This document shows, one piece after another, positions 2,330-9,476 of a DNA stretch of 64,000 bases. A model generated the notes under the pieces. That model ran no database searches. It had not been told where the DNA came from and saw nothing but the letters and a program-made list of their open reading frames with translations. Location: the NCBI GenBank assembly GCA_903921205.1, contig CAIXPF010000034.1, forward strand, positions 1 to 64,000, given 5' to 3'. A program made the translations under genes and the position numbers. Positions within the stretch are counted from its first letter, which is position 1. Each line of letters opens with the position of its first letter. The stretch is from an uncultured Acidimicrobiia bacterium (GTDB lineage Bacteria; Actinomycetota; Acidimicrobiia; Acidimicrobiales; CAIXPF01).

Positions 2330-2347
2330 CGGGCCGCTCAGGGCCCG
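2330..2347 (+). terminator. Weak GC hairpin after glnR
   Basis: CGGGCC-gctcag-GGCCCG can fold into a 6-bp stem just after glnR and before the converging 52-codon gene. There is no T-run, so terminator function is tentative. Confidence 0.3.
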
Positions 2348-2354
2348 GGCCGGA

Positions 2355-2513
2355 TCAGTTGTTGAGGTCCTTCCACACCGTGTCGGCCCCGCGACGATCG
2401 GCGTCGTCCTTGAGCAGATAGCCGAGCACCCCGGCCACGGCAGCACCGGACATCATGATGGCGACCGGCATCACGACCATGAGCACGACCACGAGCAGCA
2501 CTGCACCCCACAT
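2355..2513 (-). CDS. Small membrane protein, 52 aa, unknown function
   Basis: This short gene is absent from the ORF track. Translation from ATG 2513 gives MWGAVLLVVVLMVVMPVAIM, a strongly hydrophobic N-terminal segment of about 30 residues, then a charged tail YLLKDDADRRGADTVWKDLNN. It is therefore predicted to be a single-span inner-membrane micro-protein with a cytoplasmic or external polar tail. It starts 12 nt after the stop codon of the xanthine-dehydrogenase-like gene on the same strand, with a GGGG stretch as a possible ribosome site, so the two are probably one transcript. I do not recognise the family. Conservation next to the same neighbour in other genomes would confirm it is real. 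Confidence 0.6.
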   Translation of the reverse strand: MWGAVLLVVVLMVVMPVAIMMSGAAVAGVLGYLLKDDADRRGADTVWKDLNN

Positions 2514-2525
2514 AGGCACCCCGTT

Positions 2526-4175
2526 CTAGCGCAACGGCCGCCGTGTCGGCCACGACGGGGCCCGATCGTGCGCCGCCCACACCGCTGCGGCCGTGACCGC
2601 GAACACCGCGTCGGACACCGCGAGCGGTACCGCATCCGGCGCCGCCGGACGGACCGCGCAGTGCACCGGCGGCAGGTCCACCGCCCGCAGGACCCCCAGG
2701 CTGCGCACCGTCAGGTCCTGCACCGTGCCCTCGGCGGAGACGGTCAGGCACTCGGCGCTCACCAACGACGCCGCCAGGTGCACCGCACCGATGCAGTAGG
2801 AGCGCAGCACGATCTCGTCGAGCACCTCGCCGGCGTCGACCTCGACCGAGATTGCGCCGTCCGGGCCGATCGTGCAGGTGGCCGTACCCCCGCCGGGCTG
2901 ACGGACCGGAACCGCCCGCTCCCACAGGGCCGAGCCCAGCACCACCCCTTCGGCCCACCCCGCGGCCCGCAACGCCACCGACGTCGGCGGGCCGGCCACG
3001 TCGACCTCCTCGACCACCAGCTCGGGGGTTCCTGCACCCGGACGCAGGGCACCGGCGGCGTCGGCCGCCTCGACCGCAGCCGCGAACCCGGCCTGCAGCC
3101 GTTCGGCCACGGCCTCGGTGCGGGCGACCCGCACCACCACCCGACGGGCGGCGAGGTCGATCCCCGCTGCGATCGGCGGCCGCTTCGGGCCGTTTGCCAC
3201 GACGTCCTCGCGTGACCACAACACCCGTACCGACCGGCCGGTGCTCGCGGCCAGCTCCCGGGCCGCCTCCGCCACCGGCGAGGCCAGCTTGCCGCCGAAC
3301 GCGCCACCGTTGCCCAACGCCCCGGCCGGCTCTCCCCCGGGAACGCACCACGAGGCGTCGGTCTCCAGGTAGGCGGGATCGACCCAGCTGGTCTGCAGCG
3401 CCACGTCCCAGGAACCCGGCGGTAGCTCGACGGGGTGCGGCGGGGCCACGGTGGTCCGCCGGCCCTGGATCTTGCCTGCAGCCCGGCGGGCGTCGGCCAG
3501 ACTCGCCCCGGTCACCCAGCCGCCCGAGCCCTCGGGCACGGCGACCAGGGCATCAGCGGGTGCGCCGTCATCGGCGAAACCGCCCCGGCCCAGGGCCACC
3601 GCCGGCCCGACCTGCTGGCGCACCCGGCCCTCGAGCTCGGCCCGACGCGCCGCCGCGGCGAGGTCGCGTCCCGCCGGAGACGGCAACGGCACCGGCTGAC
3701 CGTCGCCGGCCGCGCTCCCGGCCGCGCTCCCGGCCGCGCTCCCGGTGGCGAGGGCGAAGGCCTCCACGATCGGTTGCCACCCCGTGCACCGACAGAGATG
3801 GGCGAGCAGCGCCTGAGCGGGGTTCGGGGACGGCTTGTCCGCCTCGGCCACCAGGCGCAGGATGATGCCGGGGCTGCAGAAGCCGCACTGGCTGGCACCC
3901 GTCGCAGCGAACGCCTCGGCCCAGCGGGCTGCGACCTCGGGATCGAGGCCGTCCACAGTGGTCACCCGGCGCCCGGAGAGACGCCGCACCGGCGTCACGC
4001 ACGCCACCCTGGCCACCCCGTCGATCAACACCGTGCAGCAGCCGCACTGGCCCTGGGGCGAGCAGCCGTCCTTCACCGAGCGGATGGCGAGCTGGTCACG
4101 CAGGACCGCGAGCAGGGTGGCGGCCTCGTCCACGACCTCGACCGTCCGGCCGTCCACGTACAGCGTCACAGGCAT
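2526..4175 (-). CDS. Fused, shortened xanthine dehydrogenase-like protein ([2Fe-2S] domains plus mini molybdopterin domain)
   Basis: A 549-residue protein. Residues 1-160 are a complete CoxS/XdhC-type [2Fe-2S] subunit: the plant-ferredoxin cluster (Cys38, 44 and 47 in CSPQGQCGCCTV) and the second helical cluster (CGFCSPG and CRCTGW). An Ala/Gly/Ser linker follows, then about 370 residues that look like a compressed molybdopterin subunit. The latter keeps GGAFGGK, a TGRSVRVLWSRED segment and a C-terminal VDAGEVLDEIV segment. Normal molybdenum subunits run to about 750 residues and end with a catalytic Glu in a GxGE motif; I cannot find that motif here. Catalysis is therefore doubtful and the substrate unknown. 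The start at ATG 4175 is set by a TAGGGT box 8 nt upstream; the longer track ORF is antisense read-through. Confidence 0.75.
   Translation of the reverse strand: MPVTLYVDGRTVEVVDEAATLLAVLRDQLAIRSVKDGCSPQGQCGCCTVLIDGVARVACVTPVRRLSGRRVTTVDGLDPEVAARWAEAFAATGASQCGFCSPGIILRLVAEADKPSPNPAQALLAHLCRCTGWQPIVEAFALATGSAAGSAAGSAAGDGQPVPLPSPAGRDLAAAARRAELEGRVRQQVGPAVALGRGGFADDGAPADALVAVPEGSGGWVTGASLADARRAAGKIQGRRTTVAPPHPVELPPGSWDVALQTSWVDPAYLETDASWCVPGGEPAGALGNGGAFGGKLASPVAEAARELAASTGRSVRVLWSREDVVANGPKRPPIAAGIDLAARRVVVRVARTEAVAERLQAGFAAAVEAADAAGALRPGAGTPELVVEEVDVAGPPTSVALRAAGWAEGVVLGSALWERAVPVRQPGGGTATCTIGPDGAISVEVDAGEVLDEIVLRSYCIGAVHLAASLVSAECLTVSAEGTVQDLTVRSLGVLRAVDLPPVHCAVRPAAPDAVPLAVSDAVFAVTAAAVWAAHDRAPSWPTRRPLR
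3709..3744. repeat. 12-bp tandem repeat x3 in the domain linker
   Basis: GCCGCGCTCCCG occurs three times in tandem. The unit is a multiple of three, so it encodes an in-frame Gly-Ser-Ala-Ala repeat in the linker between the Fe-S and molybdopterin-like parts of the fused oxidoreductase. Confidence 0.9.
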
Positions 4176-4301: not shown

Positions 4302-5627
4302 ATGTACCCCGACCCGTCGTCCCGTTCGGCCGCCCTGTACGAGCGGGCCCGCCGGGTGCTGCCCGACGGCGTGTCCCGCGGCACCGTGCGGGTCGACCCC
4401 TACCCGGTCTACGTGGCATCGGGCCAGGGCGCCTGGGTGACCGACGTCGACGGGAACCGGTACCTCGACGCCAACAACAACTACACCGCCATCGTCCTGG
4501 GCCACGCCGACCCCGTCGTCACCGAGGCGGTGACCCGTCAACTGGGCCGCGGCTCGGCGTTCTCCCTGGCCACCGAGGCGGAGGTGCGCCTGGCCGAACT
4601 GCTGTGCGAGCGGGCCGGCTTCGACCGCATCCGCTTCTGCAACTCCGGGACCGAGGCGGTCATGACGGCGGTCAAGGCCGCCCGGGCCTTCACCGGGCGA
4701 ACCCGCATCGCCAAGGTGGAGGGCGGTTACCACGGGGCTTACGACCACGTCGAAGTCTCCCTCGACGCCGCCGGGGGGACCTGGGGTGATCCGACCGCCC
4801 CCACCGGCGTGCCCTACGCCGCAGGCACCCCGGCATCGGTGCTGGCCGAGACGGTGGTGCTGCCCTACAACGACGCCGAGGCCACCGCATCGCTGCTGCG
4901 GACCCACGGCCACGACCTCGCCGCAGTGGTGCTCGACACCCTGCCCTCACGGGTGGGCATGCCCGAACCCGACCGGGCGTTCCTCGACACCGTGTTCGGC
5001 GTCGCCCGGGAGGTCGGTGCGCTGGTGATCCTCGACGAGGTGATCACCTTCCGTCTCGGCCCCGGCGGGAACGCCGCACGGCTGGGGCTGCAGCCCGACC
5101 TGACGACGCTGGGCAAGATCATCGGGGGCGGGTTCCCGGTCGGCGCCGTGGCCGGACGGGCCGAGGTGATGGACGTGTTCAGCCCGCTCGACGGGGCCCG
5201 GCCACGCCTGCCTGCCGGCGGCACCTTCTCGGCCAACTCCATCACCATGGTGGCCGGCCTGGCGTGCATGGAACAGCTCGACACCGCAGCCTTCGACCGC
5301 CTGGCCACGATGGGCGAACGGGTCCGCGGAGGCGTGCGGGCCATCTTCGCCGAGACCGGCTTCCCCGGCCAGGTCACCGGGGACGGATCGCTGTTCCGGC
5401 TGCATCCCCACGACCGGCCGGTCCGCAACTACCGCGACGCCCGCCACGACCCGGCCGAGGCGGCGTTCATGGCCCGGCTGCACCGGCAGCTGCTCAACCG
5501 CGGCGTCTACCTCACCACGTACGGCATGGGATGTCTGAGCCTCGCCATGACCGACGTCGATCTCGGCCATCTGCTCGACGCCGTGGCCGACGGGCTCCGG
5601 GCGGAGCTGTCCTCCGCCACCGCCTGA
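4302..5627 (+). CDS. Class III PLP aminotransferase, glutamate-1-semialdehyde aminomutase-like
   Basis: A 441-residue PLP enzyme of the HemL/class III aminotransferase family. Visible signatures are FCNSGTEAVMTAVKAAR for cofactor phosphate binding (near 105-120), ILDEVITFR with the pyridine-N aspartate (near 245), and TLGKIIGGGFPVGAVAG with the Schiff-base lysine (near 270). An AGGAGG site lies 6 nt before the ATG. Length fits glutamate-1-semialdehyde 2,1-aminomutase. However, no tetrapyrrole genes are adjacent and such paralogues are common in actinobacteria, so an amino-acid aminotransferase or mutase of another pathway is equally possible. It is divergent from the xanthine-dehydrogenase-like gene. 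Confidence 0.8.
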   Translation: MYPDPSSRSAALYERARRVLPDGVSRGTVRVDPYPVYVASGQGAWVTDVDGNRYLDANNNYTAIVLGHADPVVTEAVTRQLGRGSAFSLATEAEVRLAELLCERAGFDRIRFCNSGTEAVMTAVKAARAFTGRTRIAKVEGGYHGAYDHVEVSLDAAGGTWGDPTAPTGVPYAAGTPASVLAETVVLPYNDAEATASLLRTHGHDLAAVVLDTLPSRVGMPEPDRAFLDTVFGVAREVGALVILDEVITFRLGPGGNAARLGLQPDLTTLGKIIGGGFPVGAVAGRAEVMDVFSPLDGARPRLPAGGTFSANSITMVAGLACMEQLDTAAFDRLATMGERVRGGVRAIFAETGFPGQVTGDGSLFRLHPHDRPVRNYRDARHDPAEAAFMARLHRQLLNRGVYLTTYGMGCLSLAMTDVDLGHLLDAVADGLRAELSSATA

Positions 5628-5708: not shown

Positions 5709-6029
5709 TCAGCTGAAGGACTGGCCGCAGCCGCAGGTGCGGCTGGCGTTGGGGTTGTTGATCGAGAACCCTGCCTGGTTGAGGCCGTCCTTGTAGTCGA
5801 GGGTGGCACCGGTGAGCAGCTGGGCCGATGCCGGGTCGACCACGACCCGCACCTCGCCGAACAGCTCGGCCATGTCGTCGTCGGCGATGTCGGTGTCGAA
5901 GAACATCTCGTAGCTGAAACCGGAGCACCCACCGGGACGCACCGCGACCCGCAGCGCCAGTTCCGGCACGCCCTCGGCGTCGATGAGTTCCTTGACCTTC
6001 TTCGTTGCGGTGTCCGTGAGCGTGATCAC
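5709..6029 (-). CDS. erpA: A-type iron-sulfur cluster carrier (ErpA/IscA/HesB family)
   Basis: A 106-residue A-type carrier that receives Fe-S clusters from the assembly scaffold and delivers them to apoproteins. The three conserved cysteines are present: one in PGGCSGFSYEM (near residue 35) and two in the C-terminal TCGCGQSF. The GTG start at 6029 follows an AGGAGG site 8 nt upstream. It faces the Mrp-type ATPase gene across a divergent region, and both proteins belong to cluster trafficking, so shared regulation is plausible. Assignment to ErpA rather than IscA or SufA is by actinobacterial precedent, not by a decisive residue. Confidence 0.88.
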   Translation of the reverse strand: MITLTDTATKKVKELIDAEGVPELALRVAVRPGGCSGFSYEMFFDTDIADDDMAELFGEVRVVVDPASAQLLTGATLDYKDGLNQAGFSINNPNASRTCGCGQSFS

Positions 6030-6206: not shown

Positions 6207-7442
6207 GTGGAAACCGACCAGGTGGAACCCGACCCGAGCGGCCGAGCACCCGGCCCGGCCGACGCCATGCGGCCCACGCCGCGACCCACCCCCGAGGACG
6301 TCTTCGGCCTGCTGCGCGGCGTCATCGACCCCGAGCTCGGGTCCGATGTCGTCGACCTGGGCATGATCCGCTCGGCCGAGGTGGCCGACGACGGCACCGT
6401 CGCGGTCACCGTCGCCCTCACCACCGCCGGATGCCCGCTGCGTGCCCAACTCCAACGCGACATCAAGACCCGGGTCGGGTCGGCGCCCGGCGTGACAGCG
6501 GTGTCGATCACCTGGTCGGAGATGACCGCCGAGGAGCGGGCCACGGCCATGGGCAAGGCCCGCTTCAACGCGCAGCAGCGGGCCCCGGAAACGGCTATCC
6601 CCGCCACCACCCGGGTGATCGGGATCGCCTCGGGCAAGGGCGGGGTCGGCAAGTCGTCGGTGACGGTGAACCTCGCCGTGGCGATGGCCCAGCGGGGCCT
6701 GCGCATCGGGGTGCTCGACGCGGACATCTGGGGGTTCTCGGTGCCGCGCATGCTGGGGGTCGACGGCCGCCTCGCCGCAGTGCCCGGCGCCAAGAAGATG
6801 CTCCCGTCCACCCGGACCGTGCCCGGCCGTGGCGGGCCCGAGGGCCACCTCGAGGTGGTCTCGATGGGACTGCTCACCGACGACGAGACCGATGCGCTCA
6901 TGTGGCGCGGCCTGATGCTGAACCGGGCGGTGCAGCACTTCCTGGAGGACGTCAGCTGGGGCGCCCTCGACTACCTGCTCATCGACCTGCCGCCCGGCAC
7001 CGGTGACGTGCAGATGGGTCTGGCCCGGATGCTGCCGCGCACCGAGCTGATCGTGGTGACCACCCCGGCGCTCGCCGCCCAGAAGGTTGCCGCCCGAGCC
7101 GCGACCATGGCCCGCAAGAGCTACCTGCGCGTCGCCGGGGTCATCGAGAACATGAGCGCCTTCGTGACCCCCGACGGGACCAGCCATGCCGTGTTCGGCC
7201 GGGGCGGGGGCCAGGCGCTGGCCACCGACATCGGCGTCCCGCTGCTCGCCACGCTGCCCATCGACGCCGCAGTCGCCGACGGTGGCGACACCGGCCGCCC
7301 CGTCGCCCTCGGCGACGGCCCGGTGGCCGACGCCTTCGCCCGCCTGGCCGAGATCGTGGTGACCGAGGCCGTTCCACCGGTCGACGTCGCCGGCTGTTCG
7401 GCCCGCCTGCTCGATGCCATCGAGGCTGCGCTCCCCCGCTGA
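6207..7442 (+). CDS. mrp: Mrp/NBP35-family Fe-S cluster carrier P-loop ATPase
   Basis: A 411-residue soluble ATPase. Residues about 30-110 form the MIP18/DUF59 domain (DVFGLLRGVIDPELGSDVVDLG). Next comes the P-loop domain with the deviant Walker A SGKGGVGKSS near residue 148, the switch LDADIWGFSVPRMLG and the LIDLPPGTGDVQMGL segment. Family members bind an Fe-S cluster between subunits and pass it to target enzymes. The GTG at 6207 is chosen because of the TACACT box 7 nt upstream. The neighbouring A-type carrier supports an Fe-S role. The C-terminal part lacks a clear CxxC motif, so the cluster-binding mode is uncertain. Confidence 0.88.
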   Translation: METDQVEPDPSGRAPGPADAMRPTPRPTPEDVFGLLRGVIDPELGSDVVDLGMIRSAEVADDGTVAVTVALTTAGCPLRAQLQRDIKTRVGSAPGVTAVSITWSEMTAEERATAMGKARFNAQQRAPETAIPATTRVIGIASGKGGVGKSSVTVNLAVAMAQRGLRIGVLDADIWGFSVPRMLGVDGRLAAVPGAKKMLPSTRTVPGRGGPEGHLEVVSMGLLTDDETDALMWRGLMLNRAVQHFLEDVSWGALDYLLIDLPPGTGDVQMGLARMLPRTELIVVTTPALAAQKVAARAATMARKSYLRVAGVIENMSAFVTPDGTSHAVFGRGGGQALATDIGVPLLATLPIDAAVADGGDTGRPVALGDGPVADAFARLAEIVVTEAVPPVDVAGCSARLLDAIEAALPR

Positions 7443-8162: not shown

Positions 8163-9476
8163 GTGGCCCATCCCCCTTCGGTCGACCGAATCGCTCGCGG
8201 CCTGCGTCGCAGCGGCCTGCCCGACCCGCTCCTGGTCGACGCGGCGCGCGCCGCCATCGCAGAGGCGGTCGAGCGTGACGGGCACGACGGGGTCGACCCC
8301 GACGCCGTGGCCGCCCGAGCGGCCGAGCTTGCCGCCGAGCAGTCCCTTCGCCTGTTGCAGCCGGTCATCAACGCCACCGGGGTGCTGCTGCACACCAACC
8401 TGGGTCGCGCCCCCGTGGCGTTCCACCACGACGCCCGCTACAGCAACGTCGAGTTCCGCCTCGACCGCGGCACCCGGGGCAGCCGTTCCGACCATGCCGG
8501 CACCCTGCTGGCCCGGGCCTGTGGCGCGGAAGCGGCCCTGGTCGTCAACAACAACGCCGCAGCGGTGCTGCTGACCCTGGCCGCGCTCGGGGGGCCGGGC
8601 CGGGCTGCGGTGGCGTCGCGGGGCGAGCTGGTCGAGATCGGAGGCGGCTTCCGCATCCCCGACGTGATGGCCGCGTCCGGCACCGAGCTGATCGAGGTCG
8701 GCACCACCAACCGGACCCGGCGGGCCGACTTCGAGCGGGCGGTGGCCGCCGCCGGCGAACGCATCGCCCTGCTGCTGAAGGTCCACCAGTCCAACTACCG
8801 CATCGTCGGCTTCACCGAGACCGTCGAGGTGTCGGACCTGACCGGGCTGGGCAAGCCGGTGGTGGCCGACACCGGGTCCGGCCTGCTCGACGCCGCCTGT
8901 CCGTGGCTGACCGACGGGCCCCCGGCGTGGTTGGCCGACGAGCCGGCGGCCCGTCAGACCCTTGCCGAGGGTGCCGACCTGGTGCTGTTCTCCGGCGACA
9001 AGCTGCTCGGTGGGCCGCAGGCGGGCATCATCGCCGGCCGGGCCGACCTCATCGCCACCATCGGACGCCACCCGCTGTACCGCGCGGTACGGTGCGGCGG
9101 GCTGGTGCTGCGGGCGCTGCAGGACCTGGCCCTCGCCTACCTCGACCGGCGCGGCGGGGACATCCCGTTCTGGCGTATGGCCACCCGGAGCGTGGAAGAA
9201 CTGGCCGACCGGGCGGCGGCGGTCGCCGCGGCCGTCGGTGCCGCCCGGCCCGAGGCCATGCAGGCCGTTCCCGGTGGCGGCACCCTGCCCGGCGTCACGT
9301 TCCCCTCCTACGGGGTGGCCCTCGACGGCGATCACCGGGCCGCCCTGCGACAGCTGCAACCGCCGGTCATCGCCCGGGTGGAGGACGACCGCACGCTGTG
9401 CGACCTGCGCACCGTCGACCCCGCCGACGACGCACGGCTCGCCACCGCGCTCGCCGCCTTGGGCACCACCCCGTGA
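8163..9476 (+). CDS. selA: L-seryl-tRNA(Sec) selenium transferase
   Basis: A 437-residue PLP enzyme that converts seryl-tRNA(Sec) to selenocysteyl-tRNA(Sec) with selenophosphate. Family features are the N-terminal helical region, INATGVLLHTNLGRAP (near 75), the VVNNNAAAVLLTL segment and the PLP-lysine motif FSGDKLLGGPQAG near residue 280. The protein is slightly shorter than E. coli SelA (463). GTG 8163 lies 8 nt after a TAGCCT box. Its stop codon overlaps the GTG of a transporter gene, and selB follows. Neither selD nor tRNA(Sec) is in the window. Confidence 0.93.
   Translation: MAHPPSVDRIARGLRRSGLPDPLLVDAARAAIAEAVERDGHDGVDPDAVAARAAELAAEQSLRLLQPVINATGVLLHTNLGRAPVAFHHDARYSNVEFRLDRGTRGSRSDHAGTLLARACGAEAALVVNNNAAAVLLTLAALGGPGRAAVASRGELVEIGGGFRIPDVMAASGTELIEVGTTNRTRRADFERAVAAAGERIALLLKVHQSNYRIVGFTETVEVSDLTGLGKPVVADTGSGLLDAACPWLTDGPPAWLADEPAARQTLAEGADLVLFSGDKLLGGPQAGIIAGRADLIATIGRHPLYRAVRCGGLVLRALQDLALAYLDRRGGDIPFWRMATRSVEELADRAAAVAAAVGAARPEAMQAVPGGGTLPGVTFPSYGVALDGDHRAALRQLQPPVIARVEDDRTLCDLRTVDPADDARLATALAALGTTP

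Follow-up and report, generated by a model that had tools for sequence, protein, structure and literature searches.

A shortened, very probably molybdenum-free relative of xanthine dehydrogenase conserved in the class Acidimicrobiia

Architecture of the locus

The window analyzed here, a 64,000-nucleotide stretch of DNA from an uncultured Acidimicrobiia bacterium (contig CAIXPF010000034.1), encodes a single-chain xanthine-dehydrogenase-like protein, in the following called the mini protein, in which a two-cluster [2Fe-2S] domain is followed by a linker and a shortened remnant of a molybdopterin subunit (Table 1). An earlier note on this DNA had described the [2Fe-2S] subunit as complete, and this is borne out by all eight cluster cysteines (C38, C44, C47 and C59; C97, C100, C128 and C130), arranged in the ligand pattern C-x4/5-C-x2-C...C and CxxC...CxC of the xanthine oxidase family, and by the Fer2_2 match of this domain in Pfam. 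Strong matches in the PDB were to the FeS subunits of xanthine dehydrogenase, aldehyde oxidoreductase and CO dehydrogenase. The Ala/Gly/Ser linker, also described in the note, is real but incidental, as the repeat is gapped in most orthologues and has a pLDDT below 50.

The remnant keeps the GGAFGGK motif and, at residues 446-500, the VDAG...DEIV...SLGVLRA end region of molybdopterin subunits, as had been noted from the sequence. The GxGE motif with the catalytic Glu, sought behind this end region, is absent from the window protein, and its absence is essentially family-wide. Only 55 residues of PF02738 were matched in the window protein, in the region with GGAFGGK, with 24.5 bits at a cut-off of 27; PF20256 (MoCoBD_2) was unmatched, and the complete pair of MoCoBD_1 and MoCoBD_2 is not found in this protein. 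Among 64 family members, PF02738 matched all 64 at E<=0.01 and PF20256 matched 35. A second cofactor-binding domain (FAD, NAD or PLP) was undetectable with Pfam in both the window protein and family members, and no CoxM-type FAD gene was seen beside the mini gene in the window, in agreement with the note.

Table 1. Features of the mini locus in the window
Feature	Position	Strand	Remarks
Mini xanthine-dehydrogenase-like protein	2526..4175	-	549 aa; ATG at 4175, stop at 2526
Two-cluster [2Fe-2S] domain, residues 1-144	3744..4175	-	PF01799 6e-15; cluster motifs in 111/111 family sequences
Linker GSAAGSAAGSAAG, residues 145-157	3705..3743	-	Unconserved; disordered in model
Shortened molybdopterin-subunit remnant, residues 176-549 (373 aa)	2529..3650	-	Purifying selection, dN/dS 0.18
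GGAFGGK, residues 290-296	3288..3308	-	Sole cofactor-site motif kept
LAVSDAV, residues 518-524	2604..2624	-	Stands where full-length relatives have the catalytic GVGE
ErpA/HesB A-type Fe-S insertion protein	5709..6029	-	ErpA (PRK13623) above cut-off, NCBIfam; synteny
Mrp/ApbC-type Fe-S carrier ATPase	6207..7442	+	Conserved neighbour, divergent from ErpA

Gene neighbourhood

Of 80 loci compared within the same order, 74 have ErpA upstream of the mini gene on the same strand (at a distance of up to 150 nt in 35), and in 61 RidA follows the mini gene in the same orientation (up to 250 nt in 45). The neighbourhood also includes Mrp/ApbC, a response regulator and glutamine synthetase. Other orders of the class usually have the order ErpA-mini-RidA as well, but ErpA is frequently separated from mini there by a divergent gene. 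The arrangement is tight in all seven examined loci of the genomes lacking the molybdenum cofactor pathway described below, with ErpA at 15-36 nt and RidA at no more than 95 nt or overlapping. The ErpA-mini-RidA operon is the ancestral context of the mini gene. In the genus of the window genome a class-III aminotransferase has been inserted between ErpA and mini and splits the ancestral pair. RidA is not found beside the mini gene in this genus, and the best RidA homologue of the window genome is located on another contig.

The inserted aminotransferase (4302-5627, plus strand) is hemL-like, scoring below the hemL cut-off (342 vs 527 bits), and has a homologue in only one of the 80 order-level loci, which belongs to the same genus (L035). 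Directly after mini, at the position occupied elsewhere by RidA, lies a short ORF (2338-2525, minus strand; MWGAVLLVVVLMVVMPVAIMMSGAAVAGVLGYLLKDDADRRGADTVWKDLNN) likely encoding a small membrane protein. The divergent gene between ErpA and mini occurs in about 40% of the order-level loci and in 10 of 13 loci of other orders; it has no Pfam match and one example (L051:7059-7934, minus strand) is lipoprotein-like by eye. SelA, the L-seryl-tRNA(Sec) selenium transferase, is encoded at 8163-9476 on the plus strand, and a link of mini to selenium through this nearby gene was considered; however, SelA occurs in just 31 of the 80 order-level neighbourhoods, and its proximity is read as synteny. Two matches to PF00384 that each contain a single in-frame TGA (G000:C169:2991-4265 and G006:C1:1378177-1379448) are possibly selenocysteine-containing formate dehydrogenases, which fits SelA in the genome. 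The Acidimicrobiia-type mini locus and its synteny were also found in four MAG records (L092, L046, L074 and L107) titled Bifidobacterium breve, Thermoanaerobacterales or Acidobacteria; these titles are probably mislabelled.

Conservation and selection

Intact mini orthologues were recovered from 110 loci, each 502-575 aa in length, and all cluster cysteine motifs are present in 111 of 111 sequences and N(G/A)GxFGxK in 108. With these orthologues and 132 of the 549 columns reaching 97% identity or more (the remnant contributing 72), the family is far beyond chance. Compared with its nearest orthologue, the window gene has a dN/dS of 0.19 over its full length, with values of 0.16 for the FeS domain, 0.46 for the linker and 0.18 for the remnant, which indicates that selection on the remnant is about equal to that on the FeS domain and that the remnant is functional rather than decaying. 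Furthermore, many of its polar residues (E, D, K, R, H) are invariant across the family.

These data also bear on another explanation for a protein with about 55-65% of the length of its full-length single-chain relatives, namely a sequencing frameshift, a pseudogene or one half of a split enzyme. The earlier note had itself named a frameshift and a lack of conservation in relatives as findings that would refute a genuine mini protein; instead, the ORFs are intact and their length is conserved. Together with the overall dN/dS value and the missing other half (of eight genomes analyzed in detail below, six have no MoCoBD_2 protein that could supply it and in two the mini protein is the sole match), the intact ORFs refute this explanation, which we regard as extremely improbable.

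Origin and predicted structure

A match to the mini protein at E<=1e-25 was obtained in 230 of 298 genomes of the order of the window genome, about 189 of them below 1e-60, and the remainder was mostly taken as matches to the FeS part only. A search with just the remnant gave strong matches in the class Acidimicrobiia only, and the rest of the phylum yielded two weak matches, both to the last 105-115 or so residues of longer open frames (859-873 aa). The family profile aligned to single-chain proteins of 850-866 aa from the same class in separate blocks, namely the FeS domain (about 190 bits), GGAFGGK (about 30) and the end region (about 35-40). Three full-length Acidimicrobiia relatives score 856, 828 and 790 bits on TIGR03311, the selenium-dependent xanthine dehydrogenase (cut-off about 830).

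TIGR03311 is likewise a single chain of FeS and Mo subunit (about 848 aa) and shares with the mini protein the FeS signature KDGCSPxGQCGxCTVLVDG, NGGAFGGK and GAxHM..SE...DLT/MTLRSxGxLRAxDMP. It is the best NCBIfam match of the mini protein (4e-40) and its neighbouring group in the FeS-domain tree. However, the mini protein is about 300 aa shorter, reaches 137.6 bits at a cut-off of 830.45 and has lost the cofactor motifs and the catalytic Glu. In the FeS-domain tree the mini sequences form a single clade with a support of 100/100 beside the full-length TIGR03311-type proteins, and far from two further FeS proteins encoded in the window genome. The parsimonious reading is that the shortening occurred once and was then inherited vertically, and the mini protein is best read as a molybdenum-free descendant of single-chain molybdenum hydroxylases of the selenium-dependent xanthine dehydrogenase type.

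An AlphaFold model calculated with 64 orthologues has a pLDDT of 91.1 and a pTM of 0.92, and the linker alone is disordered. The best PDB match of the model is the aldehyde oxidoreductase MOP of Desulfovibrio (1sij; also 1dgj), a FeS-FeS-Mo single chain without FAD, with a TMq of 0.62 across large gaps and 16% identity. In contrast to the mini protein, MOP has 907 aa and binds the molybdenum cofactor (Moco). According to the model and this match the remnant is predicted to fold as the compact core of the parent architecture.

Loss of the molybdenum-cofactor site

In the xanthine oxidase family, motifs of the FRG, MGQG, GSRG, GQxxGA and GVGE type contact the molybdopterin. A side-by-side alignment of mini proteins with four full-length relatives (850-866 aa) revealed that the GGQG, MGQG and GSRGT regions are deleted in the mini proteins, that FRGFGxxQ is replaced by (L)RxAGWxE and GQxxGAVH by SYCIGAxH, and that GSDAV or a similar sequence is found instead of GVGE. 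FRG and GSRG are missing in all 111 mini sequences and SDAV is present in 96, whereas GxGE is found in eight of eight full-length relatives. GQG occurs within the last 380 residues of 17 of the 111 mini sequences and G.GE within the last 70 residues of three, in both cases with positions unchecked, so that these occurrences may be due to chance. The cofactor-contact motifs of the relatives are deleted or changed in the mini protein with the exception of GGAFGxK, a finding that goes beyond the earlier note. The mini protein descends from the xanthine oxidase family and yet lacks the defining features of this family, namely the Glu of GxGE and the FRG, MGQG, GSRG and GQxxGA motifs.

It might still be argued that the protein is a minimal active molybdenum hydroxylase, which holds Moco via GGAFGGK and in which the SDAV Asp takes over from the catalytic Glu. 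The near-universal GGAFGxK motif, the weak MoCoBD matches in Pfam and the presence of MoaA, MoaC, MoeA and MoaE in the window genome itself would be compatible with this idea, but every other cofactor-contact motif is lost. We also weighed the SDAV Asp as a stand-in for the Glu; in the most reduced mini lineages, where the alignment is ambiguous by one residue, the GSDAV motif and its Asp are missing. In addition, the gene is kept in genomes in which MoaA, MoeA and MoaE are undetected (see below), and we consider an active molybdenum hydroxylase very unlikely.

Persistence in genomes without the cofactor pathway

MoaA was unmatched in 42 of the 298 genomes of the order. A closer look at 16 genomes included ten with the mini gene and without MoaA, and MoeA was undetected in all ten. 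Two of them (G077 and G272) were set aside, as they lack MoaA, MoaC and MoeA and nevertheless have 8-12 MoCoBD_2 matches and are probably incomplete. The remaining eight genomes (G045, G074, G090, G193, G215, G235, G236 and G263) belong to three families and are 91-98% complete. MoaE and any MoCoBD_2 protein besides the mini protein were undetected in these eight genomes, whereas control genomes were positive in the same searches. A protein of the PF00384 molybdopterin superfamily is present in seven of the eight, and the two examined are NuoG by their domains. MoaC is kept in six of the eight; in two MoaC regions (L193 and L194 on G193:C26 and G074:C1) an upstream ORF is TldD-like by eye. MoaA and MoaE, the two genes sought there, were also undetected in G203, G244 and G282.

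Incompleteness of a draft genome can explain the absence of any one gene, but it hardly accounts for several genomes in which MoaA, MoaE, MoeA and the client enzymes are missing together. As the mini gene persists where MoaA, MoaE, MoeA and other Mo subunits are undetected, the protein very probably works without Moco, and we hold this part of the interpretation, the firmest one, with high confidence. Occurrence only where Moco is made, a trait of the xanthine oxidase family, does not apply to the mini gene.

The earlier note had offered two readings, a reduced enzyme that carries out new chemistry and a protein without catalytic activity that serves in electron transfer or cofactor binding. 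Electron transfer or another redox role is compatible with our data, whereas binding of molybdopterin is unlikely in view of the lost motifs and the undetected MoaA, MoaE and MoeA.

Possible function

We assume, with about even chances of being right, that the mini protein is a Moco-free redox protein with two [2Fe-2S] clusters on a xanthine-oxidase scaffold, which receives its clusters from ErpA and is connected with the imine/enamine chemistry of RidA. Both clusters would have been kept, probably inserted by the once co-transcribed ErpA, and the molybdopterin domains would have been trimmed to a compact core with loss of cofactor holding. Electrons would pass through the two clusters in one-electron redox steps, as suggested by the clusters alone, the remnant would dock a partner or a small ligand, and RidA may hydrolyse an imine or enamine product or by-product of the same pathway. 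The mini protein would in this respect resemble NuoG of complex I, whose Fe-S clusters outlasted the loss of molybdopterin. The invariant polar residues of the remnant speak against this reading, as they could indicate a catalytic pocket instead of a scaffold, and so do the loci without linked RidA and the retention of MoaC in most of the cofactor-lacking genomes.

The close ancestral linkage to ErpA within one operon, the Fe-S carrier Mrp/ApbC as divergent neighbour, and the housekeeping-like conservation, streamlined genomes included, would also suit an Fe-S maturation factor, i.e., a dead enzyme recruited to take clusters from ErpA and to pass them on to clients or stabilise them. YgfZ/IBA57, a dead relative of GcvT, offers a comparison. 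A replacement of YgfZ by the mini protein was rejected, as YgfZ was found in all 32 genomes tested, with or without the mini gene. A ferredoxin-like/xanthine dehydrogenase domain with full cysteine ligation usually stands for permanent clusters, and maturation would leave RidA without a role; overall, we regard this explanation as unlikely.

The pocket suggested by the invariant polar residues might alternatively belong to a Moco-free enzyme, in which a remodelled cavity accepts a different ligand or substrate and catalyzes its own reaction, such as the oxidation or reduction of an amine/imine passed to or from RidA. The fixed length of the remnant, the conserved RidA partner and the strong purifying selection fit such an enzyme, but an FAD, NAD or PLP domain is undetectable and GSDAV is gone from the most reduced lineages, and we judge it rather improbable.

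More broadly, it is conceivable, and we propose this tentatively, that a family near the core of the whole class Acidimicrobiia arose when a molybdenum hydroxylase was rebuilt by losing about half of its molybdopterin domains, yielding a cofactor-free redox enzyme with two [2Fe-2S] clusters, RidA as partner and its own chemistry. NuoG/Nqo3 of complex I is derived from a molybdopterin enzyme, usually lacks Moco and transfers electrons through its Fe-S clusters. It belongs to the PF00384 superfamily with another fold and is part of a membrane complex, and serves as an analogy only. If true, the mini enzyme would be, to our knowledge, the first counterpart in the xanthine oxidase family of the relation of NuoG to the formate dehydrogenase family. 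A published description of the mini family was not found in the open-access literature searched.

Domain matching would file the mini protein with xanthine dehydrogenase, although it is very probably molybdenum-free. If this is true, automatic calls of purine and aldehyde oxidation would be partly wrong in Acidimicrobiia common in soil, freshwater and marine habitats, and the family would be a natural case of a molybdenum enzyme that has shed its metal cofactor and kept the electron-transfer part. The widely conserved position of the mini gene in an operon with ErpA and RidA makes its function directly testable.
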